A stretch of 41,133 bases of DNA from Bacteroidaceae bacterium (GTDB lineage Bacteria > Bacteroidota > Bacteroidia > Bacteroidales > Bacteroidaceae): positions 1-41,133 of the forward strand of contig JAFRNY010000081.1 of NCBI GenBank assembly GCA_017429945.1, read 5' to 3'. A program made the translations under genes and the position numbers. This document shows positions 9,936 to 38,739 of this stretch, in pieces. Every line of letters starts with the position of its first letter. Position 1 is the first letter of the stretch. The notes under the pieces were generated by a model that saw nothing but the letters and a program-made list of their open reading frames with translations, ran no database searches and had not been told where the DNA came from.

Positions 9936-10192
9936 ATACCATCAAGAAATGTATGAAGGGACTCTCCCCCGCCCTCCCTGTTCTTGGAGAGTCAAGCGTC
10001 TCTTCGAGTCAAGCGAGGGAGGGAGCATATACCATCAAGAAATGAATACAAAACCGAGCCCAAACCCCTCCCGTAAGGGATGAAAATGAAAAATGAAGAG
10101 TGAAAAATGAAAAATGATGCATTAGCCTCACCTGAACATACCCTTCTTGATGGTATTAACTCTCCCCCTAAAGGGGGAGCGGGGAGGGGGTC
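9900..10192. mobile_element. 293-bp REPIN-like element bridging skp3 and murI
   Basis: Terminal arms 9900-9948 and 10144-10192 are inverted repeats matching at 46 of 49 positions. The left arm encodes the Skp3 tail and the right arm part of the MurI N-terminus. A second hairpin copy of the gactctccccc / gagggagggagc family lies inside (about 9960-10042), followed by accatcaagaaatgaatac. Heptamer-like gaaaaatgaagagtg words fill 10080-10120. Confidence 0.8.
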
Positions 10193-11586: not shown

Positions 11587-11716
11587 GACTCTCCCCCCGC
11601 CCTCCCTGATAGGGAGGTAGCAGTTACCAACCAGAAATGAATACAAAACCAAAAACCGTCATCCCACCCACAAGTCATACCGCTCCCTCCCTATCAGGGA
11701 GGGCGGGGGGAGAGTC
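11587..11716. mobile_element. 130-bp inverted-repeat element at the O-methyltransferase start
   Basis: The left arm (from 11587, gactctccccccgccctccc) and right arm (to 11716) are inverted repeats matching at 33 of the outer 34 bases. Each arm is itself a hairpin. Between them lies accagaaatgaatacaaaac, whose ATG (11637) opens the next gene. The arms are the same family as those around the DUF559 gene (29439-30044). Two extra arm tips (ggggggagagtc and gggggaagagtc) follow the right end in tandem. Confidence 0.82.
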
Positions 11717-28400: not shown

Positions 28401-28474
28401 TTGCTCGGCCGGGCGATATTTTCAATTATTCATCTTTTTTTATTAGTTTTTGTGCTCAACTGCGCAAAAAGCAT

Positions 28475-28482
28475 TACCTTTG
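28475..28482 (+). promoter_or_regulatory. -7 promoter element of ddh
   Basis: TACCTTTG with TTTG upstream near 28449-28452. The leader to ATG 28531 is about 45 bases. Confidence 0.7.
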
Positions 28483-28530
28483 CAGCCGAAAAAGGCCGCA
28501 GGCCGTGAATTTAAAAACCCCGCAAACACA

Positions 28531-29430
28531 ATGAAAAAGATTCGCGCAGCCGTAGTAGGTTACGGCAACATCGGAAAGTACGCTTTGGAGGCTCTCCAGG
28601 AGGCTCCTGACATGGAAGTGGCTGGCATCGTGCGCCGCCGCGGCGCCGAGGACCTGCCTAAGGAACTCGAAGGCTACAAGGTAGTGAAGGACATCCGCGA
28701 GCTCGACGCCGTGGACGTCGCCATCCTGGCCACCCCCACGCGTAGCGTAGAAGCCTACGCCAAGGACATCCTGGCGCTGGGGATAAACACCGTCGATTCG
28801 TTCGACATCCACACGCAGATCGTTGACCTGCGCCGCTCGCTCGACGCTGCCGCCAAGGCCGGCGGTGCCGTGAGCATAATCTCGGCCGGTTGGGATCCGG
28901 GGTCAGACAGCGTCGTGCGCACGCTCATGGAGAGCCTCGCACCCAAGGGCATCAGCTACACCAACTTCGGCCCCGGCCGCTCGATGGGCCACAGCGTGGC
29001 CGTACGCGCCATCGCCGGCGTGAAGGATGCTCTGAGCGTCACCATACCCCTCGGCACGGGCATACACCGCCGCATGGTGTACGTAGAGCTGGAGCCAGGC
29101 GCCGACTTCGAGACGGTGAAGCAGGCTGTGCTCACCGACCCGTACTTCGTCAACGATGAGACCCACGTGACGCAGGTGCCTTGCGTCAAGGACCTCAACG
29201 ACGTAGGCCACGGCGTGAACCTCGTGCGCAAGGGCGTCTCGGGCCAGACCCACAACCAGCTCTTCGAGTTTAATATGAAAATCAACAACCCCGCGCTCAC
29301 CGCACAGGTGCTCGTCAACGTGGCCCGCGCCTCCATGCGCCAGCAGCCCGGCTGCTACACGATGATCGAGATTCCCGTCATCGACCTCCTGCCGGGCGAC
29401 CGCGAGGAGATTGTGGGACATCTGGTGTAA
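28531..29430 (+). CDS. ddh: meso-Diaminopimelate D-dehydrogenase
   Basis: Ddh makes meso-diaminopimelate directly from tetrahydrodipicolinate with NADPH and ammonia, feeding lysine and peptidoglycan synthesis. The 299-residue protein has the Rossmann start [19 protein letters not shown], the substrate region [16 protein letters not shown] with [15 protein letters not shown], and the C-terminal [20 protein letters not shown]. An in-frame start at 28450 lies before the promoter box and is rejected. The length is normal for Bacteroidales. The gene ends nine bases before the DUF559 element, but its own stop is intact. Confidence 0.96.
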
Positions 29431-29438
29431 AAAAAAAA

Positions 29439-30044
29439 GACTCTCCCCCAGCCCTCCCTGCTAGGGAGGGAGCAGTTACCATACAAGAATTGTAAATATG
29501 GATTATCGTAAAGCTTCTCCCGATAGGTATCCTCTATTGAAAGAGTTTGCAAGAGAGAATAGGCGAAATCCAACAGCTGCAGAGTCTGTCCTGTGGGAGC
29601 ATTTGCGCACGTTATGTGTTGGGACTCGATTCAACAGACAATATATAATCGGTGATTATATTGTTGATTTCGCCTCTCAGCGTGAAGGGTTAATCATTGA
29701 AGTTGATGGCGCTTACCATGCAGAGCGTCAACAACAAGAGGACGATGCCGCTCGCGAACGAGACCTGGAGAATATGGGATTCCATGTCATGCGTTTCTCT
29801 AACGAAGAAGTCTTGTATGATATAGATAATGTCCTATCCCAGATTGAATCCTATTTCGAATAAATAAAAAAGAAAACATCCAGACAAATTAACCGCTCCC
29901 CCGCTCGGCTCGATAATACGCTCTAGACTTAGTGCGCTCGAGACATACTCGTTTGGCCCTTCAAGTACGAAGAATGATGAATAAAGAAACCATCCCGCCA
30001 AAAGTAACTGCTCCCTCCCTAGCAGGGAGGGCGGGGGGAGAGTC
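29439..30044. mobile_element. 606-bp inverted-repeat element carrying a DUF559 nuclease gene
   Basis: The ends 29439-29479 and 30004-30044 are 41-base inverted repeats with 40 matches (outer part gactctccccc, inner part gagggagcagttac). Each is a hairpin (ccctccct agc agggaggg). The only gene inside encodes a DUF559 endonuclease. The right end continues in frame into ribF. No target-site duplication is evident. Arms of the same family without the nuclease lie at 11587-11716 and 37797-37837. Confidence 0.72.
29498..29863 (+). CDS. DUF559 (Vsr/restriction-endonuclease-like) protein
   Basis: The 121-residue protein matches DUF559, a small endonuclease-fold family related to the very short patch repair nuclease. 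Visible features are RRNPTAAESVLWEHLR, FNRQYIIGDYIVDFASQ with the catalytic-type Asp, LIIEVDGAYHAERQ (Glu and Asp) and DLENMGFHVMRFSNEEV. The fold core E..LW...R / D / E-x-D-G is complete, so activity is plausible. The gene is AT-richer than ddh and ribF on each side and lies between 41-base inverted repeats. It may cut or nick at these hairpins, analogous to RAYT proteins and REPs, but no activity is shown. Domestic roles in repair or defence are alternatives. Confidence 0.88.
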   Translation: MDYRKASPDRYPLLKEFARENRRNPTAAESVLWEHLRTLCVGTRFNRQYIIGDYIVDFASQREGLIIEVDGAYHAERQQQEDDAARERDLENMGFHVMRFSNEEVLYDIDNVLSQIESYFE

Positions 30045-31092
30045 TTCTCTTGGGTCTATTGTCTGTACCATCGGCTTCTTCGACGGCGTACACCGCGGCC
30101 ACGAATATCTTATCCGGCAAGTGCTGGACGAAGCTCGTGGGCGCGGTGCGCGTTCGCTTCTCGTCACTTTCGACCGCCATCCGCGCACGGTGTTTGCCCC
30201 TGCGAGCACGCCGGCTCTGCTCACCACGGCTCCTGAAAAGATGGCCCTGCTGCGCGCCACGGGCGTCGACAGCATCTTCGTCCTGCCTTTCGACCGCGCT
30301 ATGGCAGCGCTCACGGCCCGTGAGTTCATGCAGCAGGTGCTGCGCGAGCGGTTGGGCGTGACGGCGCTCGTCGTCGGCTACGACCACCATTTCGGCCGTC
30401 CGCAGGGCGAGACGTTCGACGACTACGTCGCCATAGGGCGCGAGGTTGGCATCGACGTGGTGCCTGCGCGTGAGCTGGAGGGCGAGCACGTCAGCAGTTC
30501 GGCCATCCGCCGTGCCCTTGAGGGCGGTGATGTGGCCGCTGCAGCGCGTCTGCTGGGGCGCCCTTACACATGGACGGGGCGCGTCGTCCACGGCCGTGGG
30601 ATAGGCCATCGCCTGGGCTTCCCCACTGCCAACCTCGAGGCTGTGGCGCCCGAAAAGATGCTTCCCGCCCGCGGCGCGTACGCAATTAAAGTGAAAAGTG
30701 AAAGAGTGGAAAGCGAAGGAGTGAAAAGTGAAAGAGTGAAAAGTGAAAAATCGGCTGTGGAGAGCGAGGGAGTGAAAAGTGCGCTCGGTCCGCAGGAACG
30801 CTTCTTCGAGCAAAGCGAGACGGAAGAAAGAGTGAAAAGTGAAAAATCGGAGGTGGCGAGCGACGAATGGGCTGCCGGGATGCTCAATATAGGGCGGCGC
30901 CCGACGCTCGACAACGGCGACGACATCAGCGTGGAGGCCCACCTGTTCGACACCGACCACGACCTCTACGGCCAGACGCTGACGCTGGCGTTCGTGGAGC
31001 GCCTGCGGCCCGAGTTGCGCTTCGACAGCGAGGCCGCGCTGGCCCAGCAGCTCCGCCACGACGAAGAGGCGGCCCGCCGCTGCCTGCGCTGA
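29974..31092 (+). CDS. ribF: Bifunctional riboflavin kinase/FAD synthetase with two repeat-derived insertions
   Basis: RibF phosphorylates riboflavin to FMN and adenylates it to FAD. The FAD synthetase half shows CTIGFFDGVHRGHEYLI, VGYDHHFGR and the SSSAIRRAL motif; the kinase half shows GRGIGHRLGFPTANLE, NIGRRPTLDNG and SVEAHLFD. Translation likely starts at ATG 29974 or 29977, inside the end of the DUF559 element, so the first 27 residues (with KVTAPSLAGRAGGES) are repeat-encoded. A second insertion of about 60 charged residues (VKSERV-type, about 30688-30870) interrupts the kinase domain between strands GAYAIKV and GMLNIGRRPT, at a hairpin turn. The normal length is about 310; here it is about 372. 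Activity is expected because the flanking motifs remain intact. Confidence 0.93.
   Translation: MMNKETIPPKVTAPSLAGRAGGESSLGSIVCTIGFFDGVHRGHEYLIRQVLDEARGRGARSLLVTFDRHPRTVFAPASTPALLTTAPEKMALLRATGVDSIFVLPFDRAMAALTAREFMQQVLRERLGVTALVVGYDHHFGRPQGETFDDYVAIGREVGIDVVPARELEGEHVSSSAIRRALEGGDVAAAARLLGRPYTWTGRVVHGRGIGHRLGFPTANLEAVAPEKMLPARGAYAIKVKSERVESEGVKSERVKSEKSAVESEGVKSALGPQERFFEQSETEERVKSEKSEVASDEWAAGMLNIGRRPTLDNGDDISVEAHLFDTDHDLYGQTLTLAFVERLRPELRFDSEAALAQQLRHDEEAARRCLR
30688..30870 (+). repeat. In-frame heptamer-type insertion in ribF
   Basis: Units such as gtgaaaa and gtgaaag, mostly 7 bases, encode a Lys/Ser/Glu-rich peptide. The same words occur between genes at 10086-10118 and 38738-38756. 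A unique piece (gcgctcggtccgcaggaacg) lies in the middle. Confidence 0.75.
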
Positions 31093-31124
31093 GATCAAAC
31101 AAAATAAAAACACACACTGAAACT

Positions 31125-31925
31125 ATGGAAAAAAAGAATCACTGGTGGGTTTACATCCTCATCTTCATCATCAGTCAGATGTCGGCTGCTGCCGTCACCG
31201 TAACCGTTCGTCTGGTCAAGGGTCAGGCGATCGACATCTCTGAATGGGCCATGACGGCCATGCTCTTTGTGGCCAACGCGCTGGCCATAGCCCTCTTCTT
31301 CGCCTTCAAGCCCAAGAGCATCACGTGGCGCTCGACGGCCGCCGCCCTCCGCACCCCCGTGGCGCGCCGCACGGCGCTCGCCTTCCTGCTGGCGCTGCCC
31401 GTGATCTGCCTGGTCAACATCATCCAGGAGACCTTCTTCCCCGAGATTCCCGACCTCGTGGGCGAGCAGACGATGCTGGACATTATGCGCAACCCCCTGG
31501 GCCTCATCACCGTGGCCGTCATCGGTCCCGTGGCCGAGGAGCTGCTCTTCCGCGGCGGCGTGCAGACCGACCTCAGCCGTCGCTACAGCCAGCAGGGGTG
31601 GTTCGTGCCCATAGCCTTCAGCGCCCTCGCCTTCTCGCTCGTCCACATGAATCCCGCGCAGATTCCCGTGGCTTTCATCCTCGGCTGCGTGCTCGGCTTC
31701 GCCTACTGGTGGACAGGCTCCCTCGTGGCGCCCATCCTCATCCACGTCTTCAACAACTCGTTCGCCTGCCTCATGGCAGTCCTCAACCCCGACGACGACA
31801 GCTTCACGGCCTTCCTCGGAGGTAAGGGGCCCACGATTGTCACCGGCTTGGCCAGCCTATTTCTGCTCGTTGCAATACTCCATTTCATTCGCAAAGAGGG
31901 GTTAAAGCCGGTGGAAAACTTCTAA
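31125..31925 (+). CDS. CPBP-family intramembrane metalloprotease
   Basis: The 266-residue membrane protein has about seven hydrophobic segments and the CPBP (CAAX protease and bacteriocin-processing) motifs: EELLFRGGVQTDL (EExxxR), FSLVHMNPAQIPVAF (FxxxH) and PILIHVFNNS (HxxxN). Members cleave inside the membrane; in bacteria, targets are mostly unknown and some give immunity to bacteriocins. It lies 32 bases after ribF. The start MEKKNHWWVYILIF is chosen because an upstream extension would only overlap ribF in another frame. Confidence 0.92.
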   Translation: MEKKNHWWVYILIFIISQMSAAAVTVTVRLVKGQAIDISEWAMTAMLFVANALAIALFFAFKPKSITWRSTAAALRTPVARRTALAFLLALPVICLVNIIQETFFPEIPDLVGEQTMLDIMRNPLGLITVAVIGPVAEELLFRGGVQTDLSRRYSQQGWFVPIAFSALAFSLVHMNPAQIPVAFILGCVLGFAYWWTGSLVAPILIHVFNNSFACLMAVLNPDDDSFTAFLGGKGPTIVTGLASLFLLVAILHFIRKEGLKPVENF

Positions 31926-34357: not shown

Positions 34358-34946
34358 TGCGTTGAGCGTTCTTCGTTGAGCGCTTATCGCTTATCGTCTA
34401 TCGTTGAGCGTTTATCGTTTATCGTCAATGGTCCGCTCGAGCCTGCTCGCTTGATACCTCAAGAATGTTCCAAGTTAGCTTCGCTGACTTTTGTCACGAC
34501 TCGGAAATCCAAGCAAGCTTGATTGCACTCGCTGCTCCAAAAGTTCAATGTTCAAAGTTCAATGTTCAAAGTTCAATGTTCAAAGTTCAAAGTTCATGAG
34601 TAGGCCGCATGCGGCCGTAAACTTCTGAGGCGATGAGCCGAAGAAGCCCCTGAAAAAAGATTTAAGTTCAGATTTAAGTAAGATTTAAGTTCTAAAACAT
34701 TGTCCATTGAACATTGACAATTGAACATTGACAATTGAACATTGACAATTGAACATTGACAATTGAACATTGACAATTGACCACTGAATATTGTCCATTA
34801 TCCATTCTCAATTATCCATTCTCAATTATACATTATCCGCTCGAGCTCGCTCGCTTGATACTTCAAGAATTATCAATTATACATTATCAATTATACATTA
34901 TCAATTATCCATTCCCAATTCCCCGCGGCCTCTAGCCGCACAAAAT
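34358..34946. repeat. 589-bp repeat mosaic between topA and aroK
   Basis: In order: tatcgtt heptamers; a 35-base block D (34433-34467, ccgctcgagcctgctcgctt and on); a 73-base block E (34474-34546); gttcaat/gttcaaa heptamers; block F (34592-34692); acattgacaattga units; a second D-like block (34837-34870); attatac/attatca units. It is an almost complete mosaic with no gene except a possible aroK extension, which is open from 34791. Confidence 0.88.
34592..34692. repeat. Block F, about 100-bp repeat, copy 1
   Basis: Contains the palindrome ggccgcatgcggcc, the text cgatgagccgaagaagcccc and three gatttaagt units. Nearly identical to 38913-39011, with only a few changes in the gatttaagt part and A-runs. 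Confidence 0.9.
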
Positions 34947-35480
34947 ATGACCCGAATCATACTCATAGGCTATATGGGCGCAGGCAAGACCACCGTAGGC
35001 AAAGCCCTGGCAGCAGCTCTGGGCGTCACTTTCTACGACCTCGACTGGTACATCACCATGCGCTATCGCCGCAGCGTCAGCGAGATCTTCGCTGAGCGTG
35101 GCGAGGAAGGCTTCCGCGACCTCGAGCAACGCATGCTCCACGAAGTCGCCGAATTCGAGAACATCGTCCTCAGCTGCGGAGGAGGCACACCCTGCTTCTT
35201 CGACAACATGGACTATATGAACTCCCTCGCCGACACCATCTACCTCAAGGCAGACCCCGAAGTGCTCGCACAACACCTGCTCATGGGCAAAGGACGACGC
35301 CCGCTCATCGAAGGCAAATCGCCCGACGAACTGCGCGAATACATCCGCCAGACACTCGTCGTGCGCGAACCCTTCTACACGCGAGCCAAGCACACCCTCG
35401 ACGTCTCGCTCCTCGACACCGCAGGCAAAGTGGACCAAAGCGTGCAACTCATTCTAAAAACATTGAACATTGAACATTGA
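34947..35480 (+). CDS. aroK: Shikimate kinase
   Basis: AroK phosphorylates shikimate, the fifth step to chorismate. The 177-residue core has the P-loop ILIGYMGAGKTTVGKAL, the shikimate-binding YDLDWYITMRYRRSVSEIF, the CGGGTPCF motif and the lid KGRRPLIEGKSPDELREYI. The frame is open back to 34791 through repeats, so an N-terminal extension of 52 residues is possible, but ATG 34947 gives the family's normal start. The last residues (LKTLNIEH) and the stop come from the heptamer repeat after the gene, so the original 3' end has been replaced. The gene lies between inverted copies of blocks D and E. Confidence 0.94.
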   Translation: MTRIILIGYMGAGKTTVGKALAAALGVTFYDLDWYITMRYRRSVSEIFAERGEEGFRDLEQRMLHEVAEFENIVLSCGGGTPCFFDNMDYMNSLADTIYLKADPEVLAQHLLMGKGRRPLIEGKSPDELREYIRQTLVVREPFYTRAKHTLDVSLLDTAGKVDQSVQLILKTLNIEH

Positions 35481-35690
35481 ACATTGAACGTTGAACTTTG
35501 AACTTTTGGAGCAGCGAGGGCAGTCAAGCTCGCTTGAATTGCCGAGTCGCGACAAAAGTCAGCGAAGCTAACATTGAACTTTGACCATTCTTGAGGTATC
35601 AAGCGAGCAGGCTCGAGCGGACCATTGACGATAGACGATAAACGATAAACGCTAAACGCTCAACGATTTACCTTCCAAAGCAGGCAGAAC
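35457..35690. repeat. Repeat mosaic between aroK and speA
   Basis: attgaac heptamers, inverted block E (35500-35572, 67 of 73 matches to 34474-34546), inverted block D (35586-35620, identical to 34433-34467 reversed), then gataaac/gctaaac heptamers. Confidence 0.88.
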
Positions 35691-37768: not shown

Positions 37769-38739
37769 GGAAAACAAAGAATACAGCCAGTCAAAAGTAA
37801 CCGCTCCCTCCCTAGCAGGGAGGGCGGGGGGAGAGTCCAAGTCTTCGGGGGGAGAGTCTATCACCGTCATCAAAGTCGGCGGAGCCGTCGTCGAAGACCC
37901 CGCCCAGCTCGCCACCCTCCTCGATAACTTTGCCGCCACGCCCGGACCCAAAGTCCTCGTGCACGGAGGCGGGCGCACAGCCACCGCCCTCGCCGCACAG
38001 CTCGGCATAGAGAGTCGCATGGTCGGCGGGCGCCGCATCACCGATGCCCAGACACTCCGCGTCGTCACCATGGTCTATGCCGGCCTCGTCAACAAGAACA
38101 TCGTGGCACAGCTGCAGGCACGAGGCATCAACGCACTAGGCCTCACCGGAGCCGACCTCAACATCATCAGCGCACACCGCAGACCCGTCACCCCCGACGG
38201 CACCGACTTCGGCTACGTGGGCGATGTCGATAGCGCCGACGGCCAGCGCCTCCGCCAGCTCCTCGAACTCGGCATAACGCCCGTCATAGCACCCCTCACC
38301 CACGACGGCCACGGCAACCTCCTCAACACCAACGCCGACACCATGGCCCAAACCATTGCCACCGCCCTCGCCACCCCGCAGCCCAATTGTCCATTGTCCA
38401 TTGTCCATTCTCAATCCCCCACCCCGCTAAACGATAAACCCTCAACGCTAAACGAATCCCCCTCCGCGCAGCCCAATTTTCAATCTTCAATTTTCCCCCC
38501 CCACCCTCACCTTCTGCTTCGAGCTCCCTGGCGTGCTGCGCGACCCCGCCGACCCCACCACCCTCATACCCCTCATCACCGAAGCCCAGCTGTCCGCCCT
38601 CATCGCCGACGGCACCGTCAGCGGTGGCATGATACCCAAGCTCCAAAACGCCTTCGCCGCCCTCCATGCCGGCGTCGCCACCGTCCGCATCACCAACATC
38701 CACAACCTCACCGCCGGCACCCTTCTCGCGCTAGAATAA
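37767..38739 (+). CDS. argB: Acetylglutamate kinase with repeat insertions and a frame break at a C-run
   Basis: ArgB phosphorylates N-acetylglutamate in arginine synthesis. The first part is normal (ITVIKVGGAVVEDPAQLA, VLVHGGGRTATALAAQLG, LNTNADTMAQTIATALA). The N-terminal 31 residues (MENKEYSQSKVTAPSLAGRA and on) come from a REP-like arm. At about 38373 an insert of about 44 residues encoded by heptamers enters. It ends in eight C (38495-38502), after which the original frame reads nonsense. With seven C the frame resumes as LTFCFELPGVLRD and runs through LIADGTVSGGMIPKLQNAFA to TAGTLLALE and the stop at 38739. So the gene is off by one base: a true mutation, a phase-variable tract or a sequencing error. 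The GTG start is likely but unproved. Confidence 0.85.
37797..37837. repeat. REP-like arm at the argB start
   Basis: This 41-base arm matches the ribF-side arm (30004-30044) at 40 of 41 positions and lies in the same reading frame relative to its gene, giving VTAPSLAGRAGGES in both proteins. A second arm tip (ggggggagagtc) follows. Confidence 0.9.
38373..38504. repeat. Heptamer-type insertion inside argB with C8 tract
   Basis: The block contains tgtccat units, aacgataaaccctcaacgct, ttttcaatcttcaattttc and a run of eight C at 38495-38502. Similar words fill the intergenic fields nearby. Confidence 0.85.

Follow-up and report, generated by a model that had tools for sequence, protein, structure and literature searches.

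A DUF559 nuclease gene between inverted triplex-type hairpins as a probable mobile unit in Bacteroidaceae and more distant bacteria

Arms, gene and neighbours at the ribF locus

The window analysed here, the whole stretch of 41,133 nucleotides of Bacteroidaceae DNA, carries a compact unit of two inverted arms and one gene between an upstream host gene on the forward strand, named ddh-like by sight (28450..29430), and a ribF-like gene. The left arm (29439..29479, forward strand) consists of an outer tag (29439-29451), a hairpin (29452-29470) and an inner tail (29471-29479), and the right arm (30004..30044, reverse strand) presents the same parts in inverted order, with the inner tail at 30004-30012, the hairpin at 30013-30031 and the outer tag at 30032-30044; the outer tag reads GACTCTCCCCC. 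The two arms are identical, in inverted orientation, at 40 of 41 positions, and each is a hairpin, as the initial annotation of this DNA had claimed. They constitute the longest inverted repeat listed for positions 28500-31500, and each folds with a stem of 8 bp and a loop of 3 nt. The stability of the single-stranded arms relative to shuffled sequences is only moderate (z -1.2 to -1.9), so the evidence for these arms lies in their recurrence, not in their folding energy.

The interior of the unit (29480..30003; GC 0.427) contains a single gene, in agreement with the earlier claim that an AT-richer DUF559 gene is the only one inside. This gene (29498..29863, forward strand) encodes a protein of 121 aa that is assigned to Pfam DUF559 (1.1e-33), and its GC content is 0.432, whereas the window as a whole has 0.559 and the neighbouring genes have 0.62-0.63; a value this low is nevertheless reached by 121 of 1359 segments of equal size. 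DUF559 is still listed in Pfam as a family of unknown function, and the protein is predicted to adopt a Vsr/I-Bth0305I-like nuclease fold, its closest folds (VIA-align) being 3hrl, the homing endonuclease I-Bth0305I and Vsr. The E. coli YcjD protein, a DUF559 member by annotation, is 38% identical to the window protein. On the downstream side, a forward-strand frame (29980..30082) takes in the right arm and continues to the beginning of the ribF-like gene, with the inferred translation yielding the peptide NKETIPPKVTAPSLAGRAGGESSLGSIVCTIGFFDG, and in genomes with an empty site the stop of the ddh-like gene adjoins the ribF start.

Related arms that lack the nuclease gene had also been claimed for other parts of the window, and they are found there as a gene-less inverted pair of the same family (11587..11716) and as a single arm on the reverse strand in front of another gene (37806..37837). 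Across the window's own genome, the stem pattern has 72 and 73 matches on the two strands (near-palindromic sites being counted on both), and the pattern read backwards has none. The outer tag recurs, as GACTCTCCCCC or as the complement, at window positions 9960, 11724 and 37848, the latter two just outside a complete arm. The window also contains two inverted stretches of ~195 bp (34395-34587 and 35459-35658), partly composed of low-complexity tandem units, which enclose a gene that is shikimate-kinase-like by sight, and a set of 15-bp repeats (GTGAAAAGTGAAAGA type) at 30691-30863 within the ribF-like reading frame.

Matched inverted arms inside and outside the genus

The genome that contains the window has five DUF559 genes, all of which have hairpin arms by eye. 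In a sample of 61 genomes of the genus, taken from a larger group, 37 contained a DUF559 match, at 91 places in total; 74 of these were analysed, and the 17 omitted scored below 84 bits and were mostly partial. A best inverted flank match of at least 15 was found at 67 of the 74 loci vs 8 of 264 control positions, which were pseudo-gene positions in the window and include, among the eight that passed, two that correspond to the unit under study; when the flanks were compared in direct orientation, this value was reached at 11 of the 74 loci. Similarly, a C-rich hairpin was present in both 300-bp flanks of 65 of the 74 loci, in one flank of 6 and in neither of 3, compared with 0, 6 and 57 of 63 controls, the controls used for enrichment being shifted positions rather than matched genes. 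In 135 of 141 units, the tags face outward. Stems vary among elements; between the two arms of an element the median match is 25, compared with 9 between arms of different elements in the same genome, and for 57 of 61 the best partner was the element's own arm.

The same arrangement recurs in distant bacteria. The best 80 among the matches listed for named organisms were mostly from Proteobacteria (in the old sense), with single records from Nitrospira, Binatia and Auribacterota. The inverted threshold was reached at 57 of these 80 loci (56 of 79 without L188, an artefact produced by a match of masked bases) vs 10 of 1458 positions taken within those loci. The direct-orientation threshold was reached at 34 of the 80, a score that is raised in this set because many of its loci carry dimers. 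Hairpins were found in both flanks of 42 of these loci, in one flank of 29 and in neither of 9 (controls: 0, 4 and 137 of 141). According to the initial annotation, a lack of enrichment for flanking inverted hairpins at DUF559 genes would have spoken against its reading; strong enrichment was observed within the genus and outside it. Of 35 records found in a plasmid collection, 14 loci were read, from Cyanobacteriota, Deinococcota, Alphaproteobacteria and E. coli, and by eye these 14 have hairpins of the window layout on both sides in 10 cases and on one side in 4. For other families of the window's phylum, a DUF559 match was present in 78 of 148 genomes, and among 29 new loci from this sample the inverted threshold was reached by 7 of 17 solitary loci and 1 of 12 loci in long frames; several of the 29 score much higher in direct orientation.

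Gene and repeats also tend to occur together. At least five CCCTCCC-type repeats were found in 29 of 37 genus genomes with a DUF559 match vs 5 of 24 without one (p 1.4e-5, kinship ignored), and another stem type gave 33 of 78 vs 10 of 70 genomes in the phylum sample (p 2.4e-4, kinship ignored), many of the genomes in both counts being incomplete. An exception is G018, with 93 repeats and no DUF559 match; altogether, five genomes (G018, G026, G014, G027 and G058), some of them incomplete, combine 10-93 repeats with no such match.

These data bear on the idea that the hairpins are moved by a RAYT protein or by replication slippage, and that DUF559 simply rides along or lands among them. The persistence of repeats in some genomes without a DUF559 match would agree with it, as would the one Y1/RAYT-type gene of the window's own genome. 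It is nonetheless improbable, since arms match within an element and not between the elements of a genome, since distant bacteria likewise have this gene family enclosed by such arms, and since the Y1 gene has a different inverted repeat of its own. RAYT was also considered in its own right as the mover of the unit, and was rejected on account of this unrelated 44-bp repeat. The two 44-bp copies that bracket the Y1/RAYT gene are perfect inverted repeats, at 1321-1364 and ~1929-1972 of locus L063.

Site states and transfer between species

Comparison of the same sites across genomes revealed the unit in several states. At the ddh|ribF site, where 30 loci were read, the unit is full in the window's genome (G000), has an internally deleted gene in G016, is reduced to a gene-less inverted dimer in G042 and to single hairpins before ribF in G019 and G040, and is absent from five genomes with an empty site (G048, G043, G055, G011 and G041); the remaining loci have other sequence there, or show no ribF within the stretch examined. 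Inspection of this site by eye revealed no target duplication. At the ispG|cysS site, also read in 30 loci, the unit is full in G000, G003, G016 and G015, decayed in G043 and G046, and present as gene-less hairpin remnants in G060 and G010, and the site is empty (a cysS motif within 170 bp and no hairpin seen) in 8. Arms and gene belong together, and they are present or absent at defined sites as a unit. An objection raised at the outset was that the gene might be syntenic and vertically inherited without the arms; the occurrence of one site in full, decayed, gene-less and empty form across genomes shows that synteny alone does not account for it.

Identity comparisons suggest how this unit travels. 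The closest DUF559 pairs share a site: none of 7 pairs that are at least 85% identical lie at different sites, and within a single genome the closest two copies are 75% identical. Among 12 same-site pairs compared, three have cores that are 99.4-100% identical, and distant segments of their flanks are 80-90% (L038/L064), 82-91% (L052/L066) and 88-93% (L101/L102) identical. When these three pairs were followed in 60-bp steps, the high identity stopped near the outer ends of the arms. A fourth same-site pair, L049/L072, is a weaker case, and the remaining pairs (for example, L005/L071) have no excess of element over flank identity of this kind; altogether, 9 of the 12 pairs lack a clear excess, which fits vertical inheritance. 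By sight, the three transfers took place at korA|korB-like, apgM|thrC-like and rfbC|rfbB-like junctions between co-directed genes. Thus, the whole unit has passed between species with breakpoints close to the outer arm ends. Since near-identical copies were not found at different sites, it is probably not an ordinary insertion sequence; the unit is mobile, but its movement is rare and biased to the same site, which places it closer to homing. The proposal that this locus is a mobile element is upheld as far as mobility is concerned, by the site states and the three transfers; spread to new sites was not seen directly (0/7 pairs).

Two other readings can be weighed against these observations. 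One is a role in host repair, in which a Vsr-like DUF559 nuclease is retained near hairpins because it deals with the structures or mismatches to which they give rise. The Vsr fold would suit such a role, and excerpts of one report describe Caulobacter VsrA, a DUF559 protein, as linked to DNA damage (PMC12907096), but a repair gene need not sit between matched arms, and patchy presence, decay and same-site horizontal transfer make this account quite improbable. The other is a RAYT-like process, in which the DUF559 protein acts in trans on single-stranded hairpins and copies dimers while its own gene stays static and is mostly inherited vertically. The dispersed inverted dimers, a repeat copy number that tracks gene presence, the dimers that flank the gene on both sides in Proteobacteria and the lack of recent gene copies at new sites would all be expected from it. 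It appears unlikely all the same, since the nuclease is not an HUH/Y1 enzyme and three pairs show that the entire unit, from one arm to the other, has been passed between species.

Dispersed hairpins and relation to known systems

The window arms are of the type described as BoxC, PIT or the ‘intrastrand triplex motif’. Both have a C-rich stem, a G-rich stem and a third G-rich block, and both occur in many copies, some of them as inverted pairs, with the window arms representing a sequence variant. Many of the named loci read like CCCCTCTCCC-loop-GGGAGAGGGG-TTGGGGTGAGGG, and all 20 named genomes chosen for such arms contain 5-100 CTCTCCC hairpins (reversed pattern, 0-1). In 126 genus arms, the tag mirrored the stem of its own arm with a score of 5.98 of 7 and permuted stems with one of 5.45 (0/2000, with kinship kept in). 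The excerpted text of PMC4666352 gives 23 copies of this motif in MG1655 and counts it in >260 genomes, reports that the E. coli motif forms a triplex in vitro, and links the repeat type to genome instability in E. coli. Therefore, the repeat family is not new, which qualifies the suggestion of a new mobile or repeat-maintaining system, a reading that otherwise held up in essence. According to the same excerpts, no transposase or integrase remnants were ever found around motif sites, and no activity that might mobilise them was found nearby. These repeats were thus described without a mobility gene; in the present case, repeats of this type enclose a nuclease gene.

E. coli itself provides a parallel. 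In one E. coli record (L149), a copy of canonical form, GGGGAGAGGGTTAGGGTGAGGGG, lies between ycjD and fabI, with two degenerate copies closer to ycjD, and no BoxC-type copies were seen upstream of ycjD in this record. At least 80% of a sapF-ycjD-fabI query was present in 3333 of 5426 E. coli genomes, and strains that lack ycjD have the eef operon at the site, which is supported by excerpts of PMC12817139. The same source reports ycjD in E. coli K-12, so a laboratory strain reported to have both the repeats and the gene makes the question testable.

The dispersed hairpins of the window's own genome retain traces of the element. Searched stretches of this genome contain 62 CCCTCCC-type arms, 57 of which lie away from DUF559, and 24 of these 57 match the subterminal sequence, L-type or R-type, of a single DUF559 element beyond the 99th shuffle percentile, where about one would be expected by chance. 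Several gene-less pairs combine one L-like and one R-like end, as an internal deletion would leave. No DUF559 remnants beyond the known copies were found in 35 stretches containing other repeat clusters of this genome. A split into left and right inner ends across the genus was also attempted, with crude classes that failed, and the claim is limited to CCCTCCC-type arms of the window's own genome. That these hairpins are ordinary terminators or regulatory hairpins around a small gene would account for their high G+C content and for many of them being intergenic, but it is highly improbable in view of the shared tags, the subterminal sequences, the dimer layout and the joint presence or absence of arms and gene; moreover, no promoter or terminator activity is quoted for the repeat type in the excerpts of PMC4666352.

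Among known systems, the closest in layout is the RAYT/REP system (REPtron), which, according to excerpts of PMC3733652, also has a nuclease gene between inverted palindromes, dispersed relatives and inverted dimers. RAYT proteins are Y1 HUH enzymes associated with GTAG-tagged REPs, whereas the unit described here has DUF559 and the tag GACTCTCCCCC, and by sight no GTAG was present among the arm tags of the window's genome. The parallel with RAYTs and REPINs that was drawn earlier thus stands for the layout and does not extend to membership. CGTC-tagged REPs are palindromic, are found mainly in Alphaproteobacteria and are said to lack a dedicated transposase (PMC3733652, in excerpt); unlike them, the window arms have by sight neither a CGTC tag nor an AT start of the stem. 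DUF559 was considered as the missing partner of these REPs, which is unsupported for the window arms given the lack of both features. In some arms (L230, L004 and L005) the stem is nonetheless preceded by CGTC, so a deeper link may exist.

The predicted fold of the DUF559 protein is common to the EDxHD/Vsr-like homing endonucleases such as I-Bth0305I (3r3p), and the same-site transfer typical of homing genes is seen in three pairs and not in others. Homing endonucleases are often, though not obligatorily, intron-borne; here the gene lies between hairpin arms, and no intron family was detected in six loci, where no Rfam family of any kind reached its gathering score. On the features tested, the element is neither a RAYT system nor an intron-borne gene. 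Its parts are known separately, and the link between gene and repeats appears to be new: no report of it was found in the literature searched, a body of work that leaves most subscription papers and bioRxiv outside its scope. This link gives a testable role to DUF559 and to the BoxC/PIT/triplex repeats, and it adds to RAYT another kind of hairpin-associated nuclease, one that is not an HUH enzyme.

Both the transfer into the same site and the relatedness to I-Bth0305I are in keeping with homing. Homing alone leaves tens of dispersed hairpins unexplained; these call either for deletion derivatives combined with rare ectopic spread or for an action in trans like that of RAYT. The account that we consider probable is that of a discrete mobile unit, composed of a triplex-type hairpin arm, a DUF559 nuclease gene and an inverted arm, which spreads in a homing-like manner and leaves gene-less hairpins as debris. 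It is quite possible, if somewhat short of probable, that this amounts to a new kind of mobile element, with one Vsr-fold nuclease between triplex-type hairpins and no splicing device, which spreads between species and whose debris forms the BoxC/PIT/triplex repeats found across hundreds of bacterial genomes, those of E. coli with ycjD among them. In such a cycle, the Vsr-fold nuclease would cut the empty target, or arms extruded as hairpins, and repair would place a copy of the unit at the same junction in the manner of a homing gene. Gene-less dimers and single hairpins would then arise through rare ectopic events and through internal deletions, and these leftovers may make up the dispersed BoxC/PIT/triplex-motif repeats. 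The target sites would be gene junctions, with some copies placed in frame with, or inside, core genes.

Copies inside host genes were found in both samples. Open frames of at least 250 aa contain 18 of the 74 genus copies, and in the phylum sample 11 of 12 long-frame loci were read and assigned by sight, to leuS (three), metH (two), hsdR (two), hsdM (one) and other methylases (three), with Pfam confirming DUF559 within leuS (L270) and metH (L283). The arms in these long-frame loci yield PSPSGRG-like peptides. Rickettsia palindromic elements likewise place palindromic DNA in frame inside host genes; the insert described here differs from them in that it can carry a whole nuclease domain. At the leuS junction, which was compared in 30 relatives, 26 of 29 readable cases have 29-54 aa and three have 159-232 aa, one of the latter being DUF559 by Pfam and two DUF559-like by eye. 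Other short inserts, unlike the DUF559 arms, occupy the same leuS junction in L300 and L321. The region of L269 (G166 C1 1638375-1640577) contains, within ~2.2 kb, every one of the seven hairpins of one stem type that were counted in this genome; they lie inside or close to a methylase-like gene with an in-frame DUF559.
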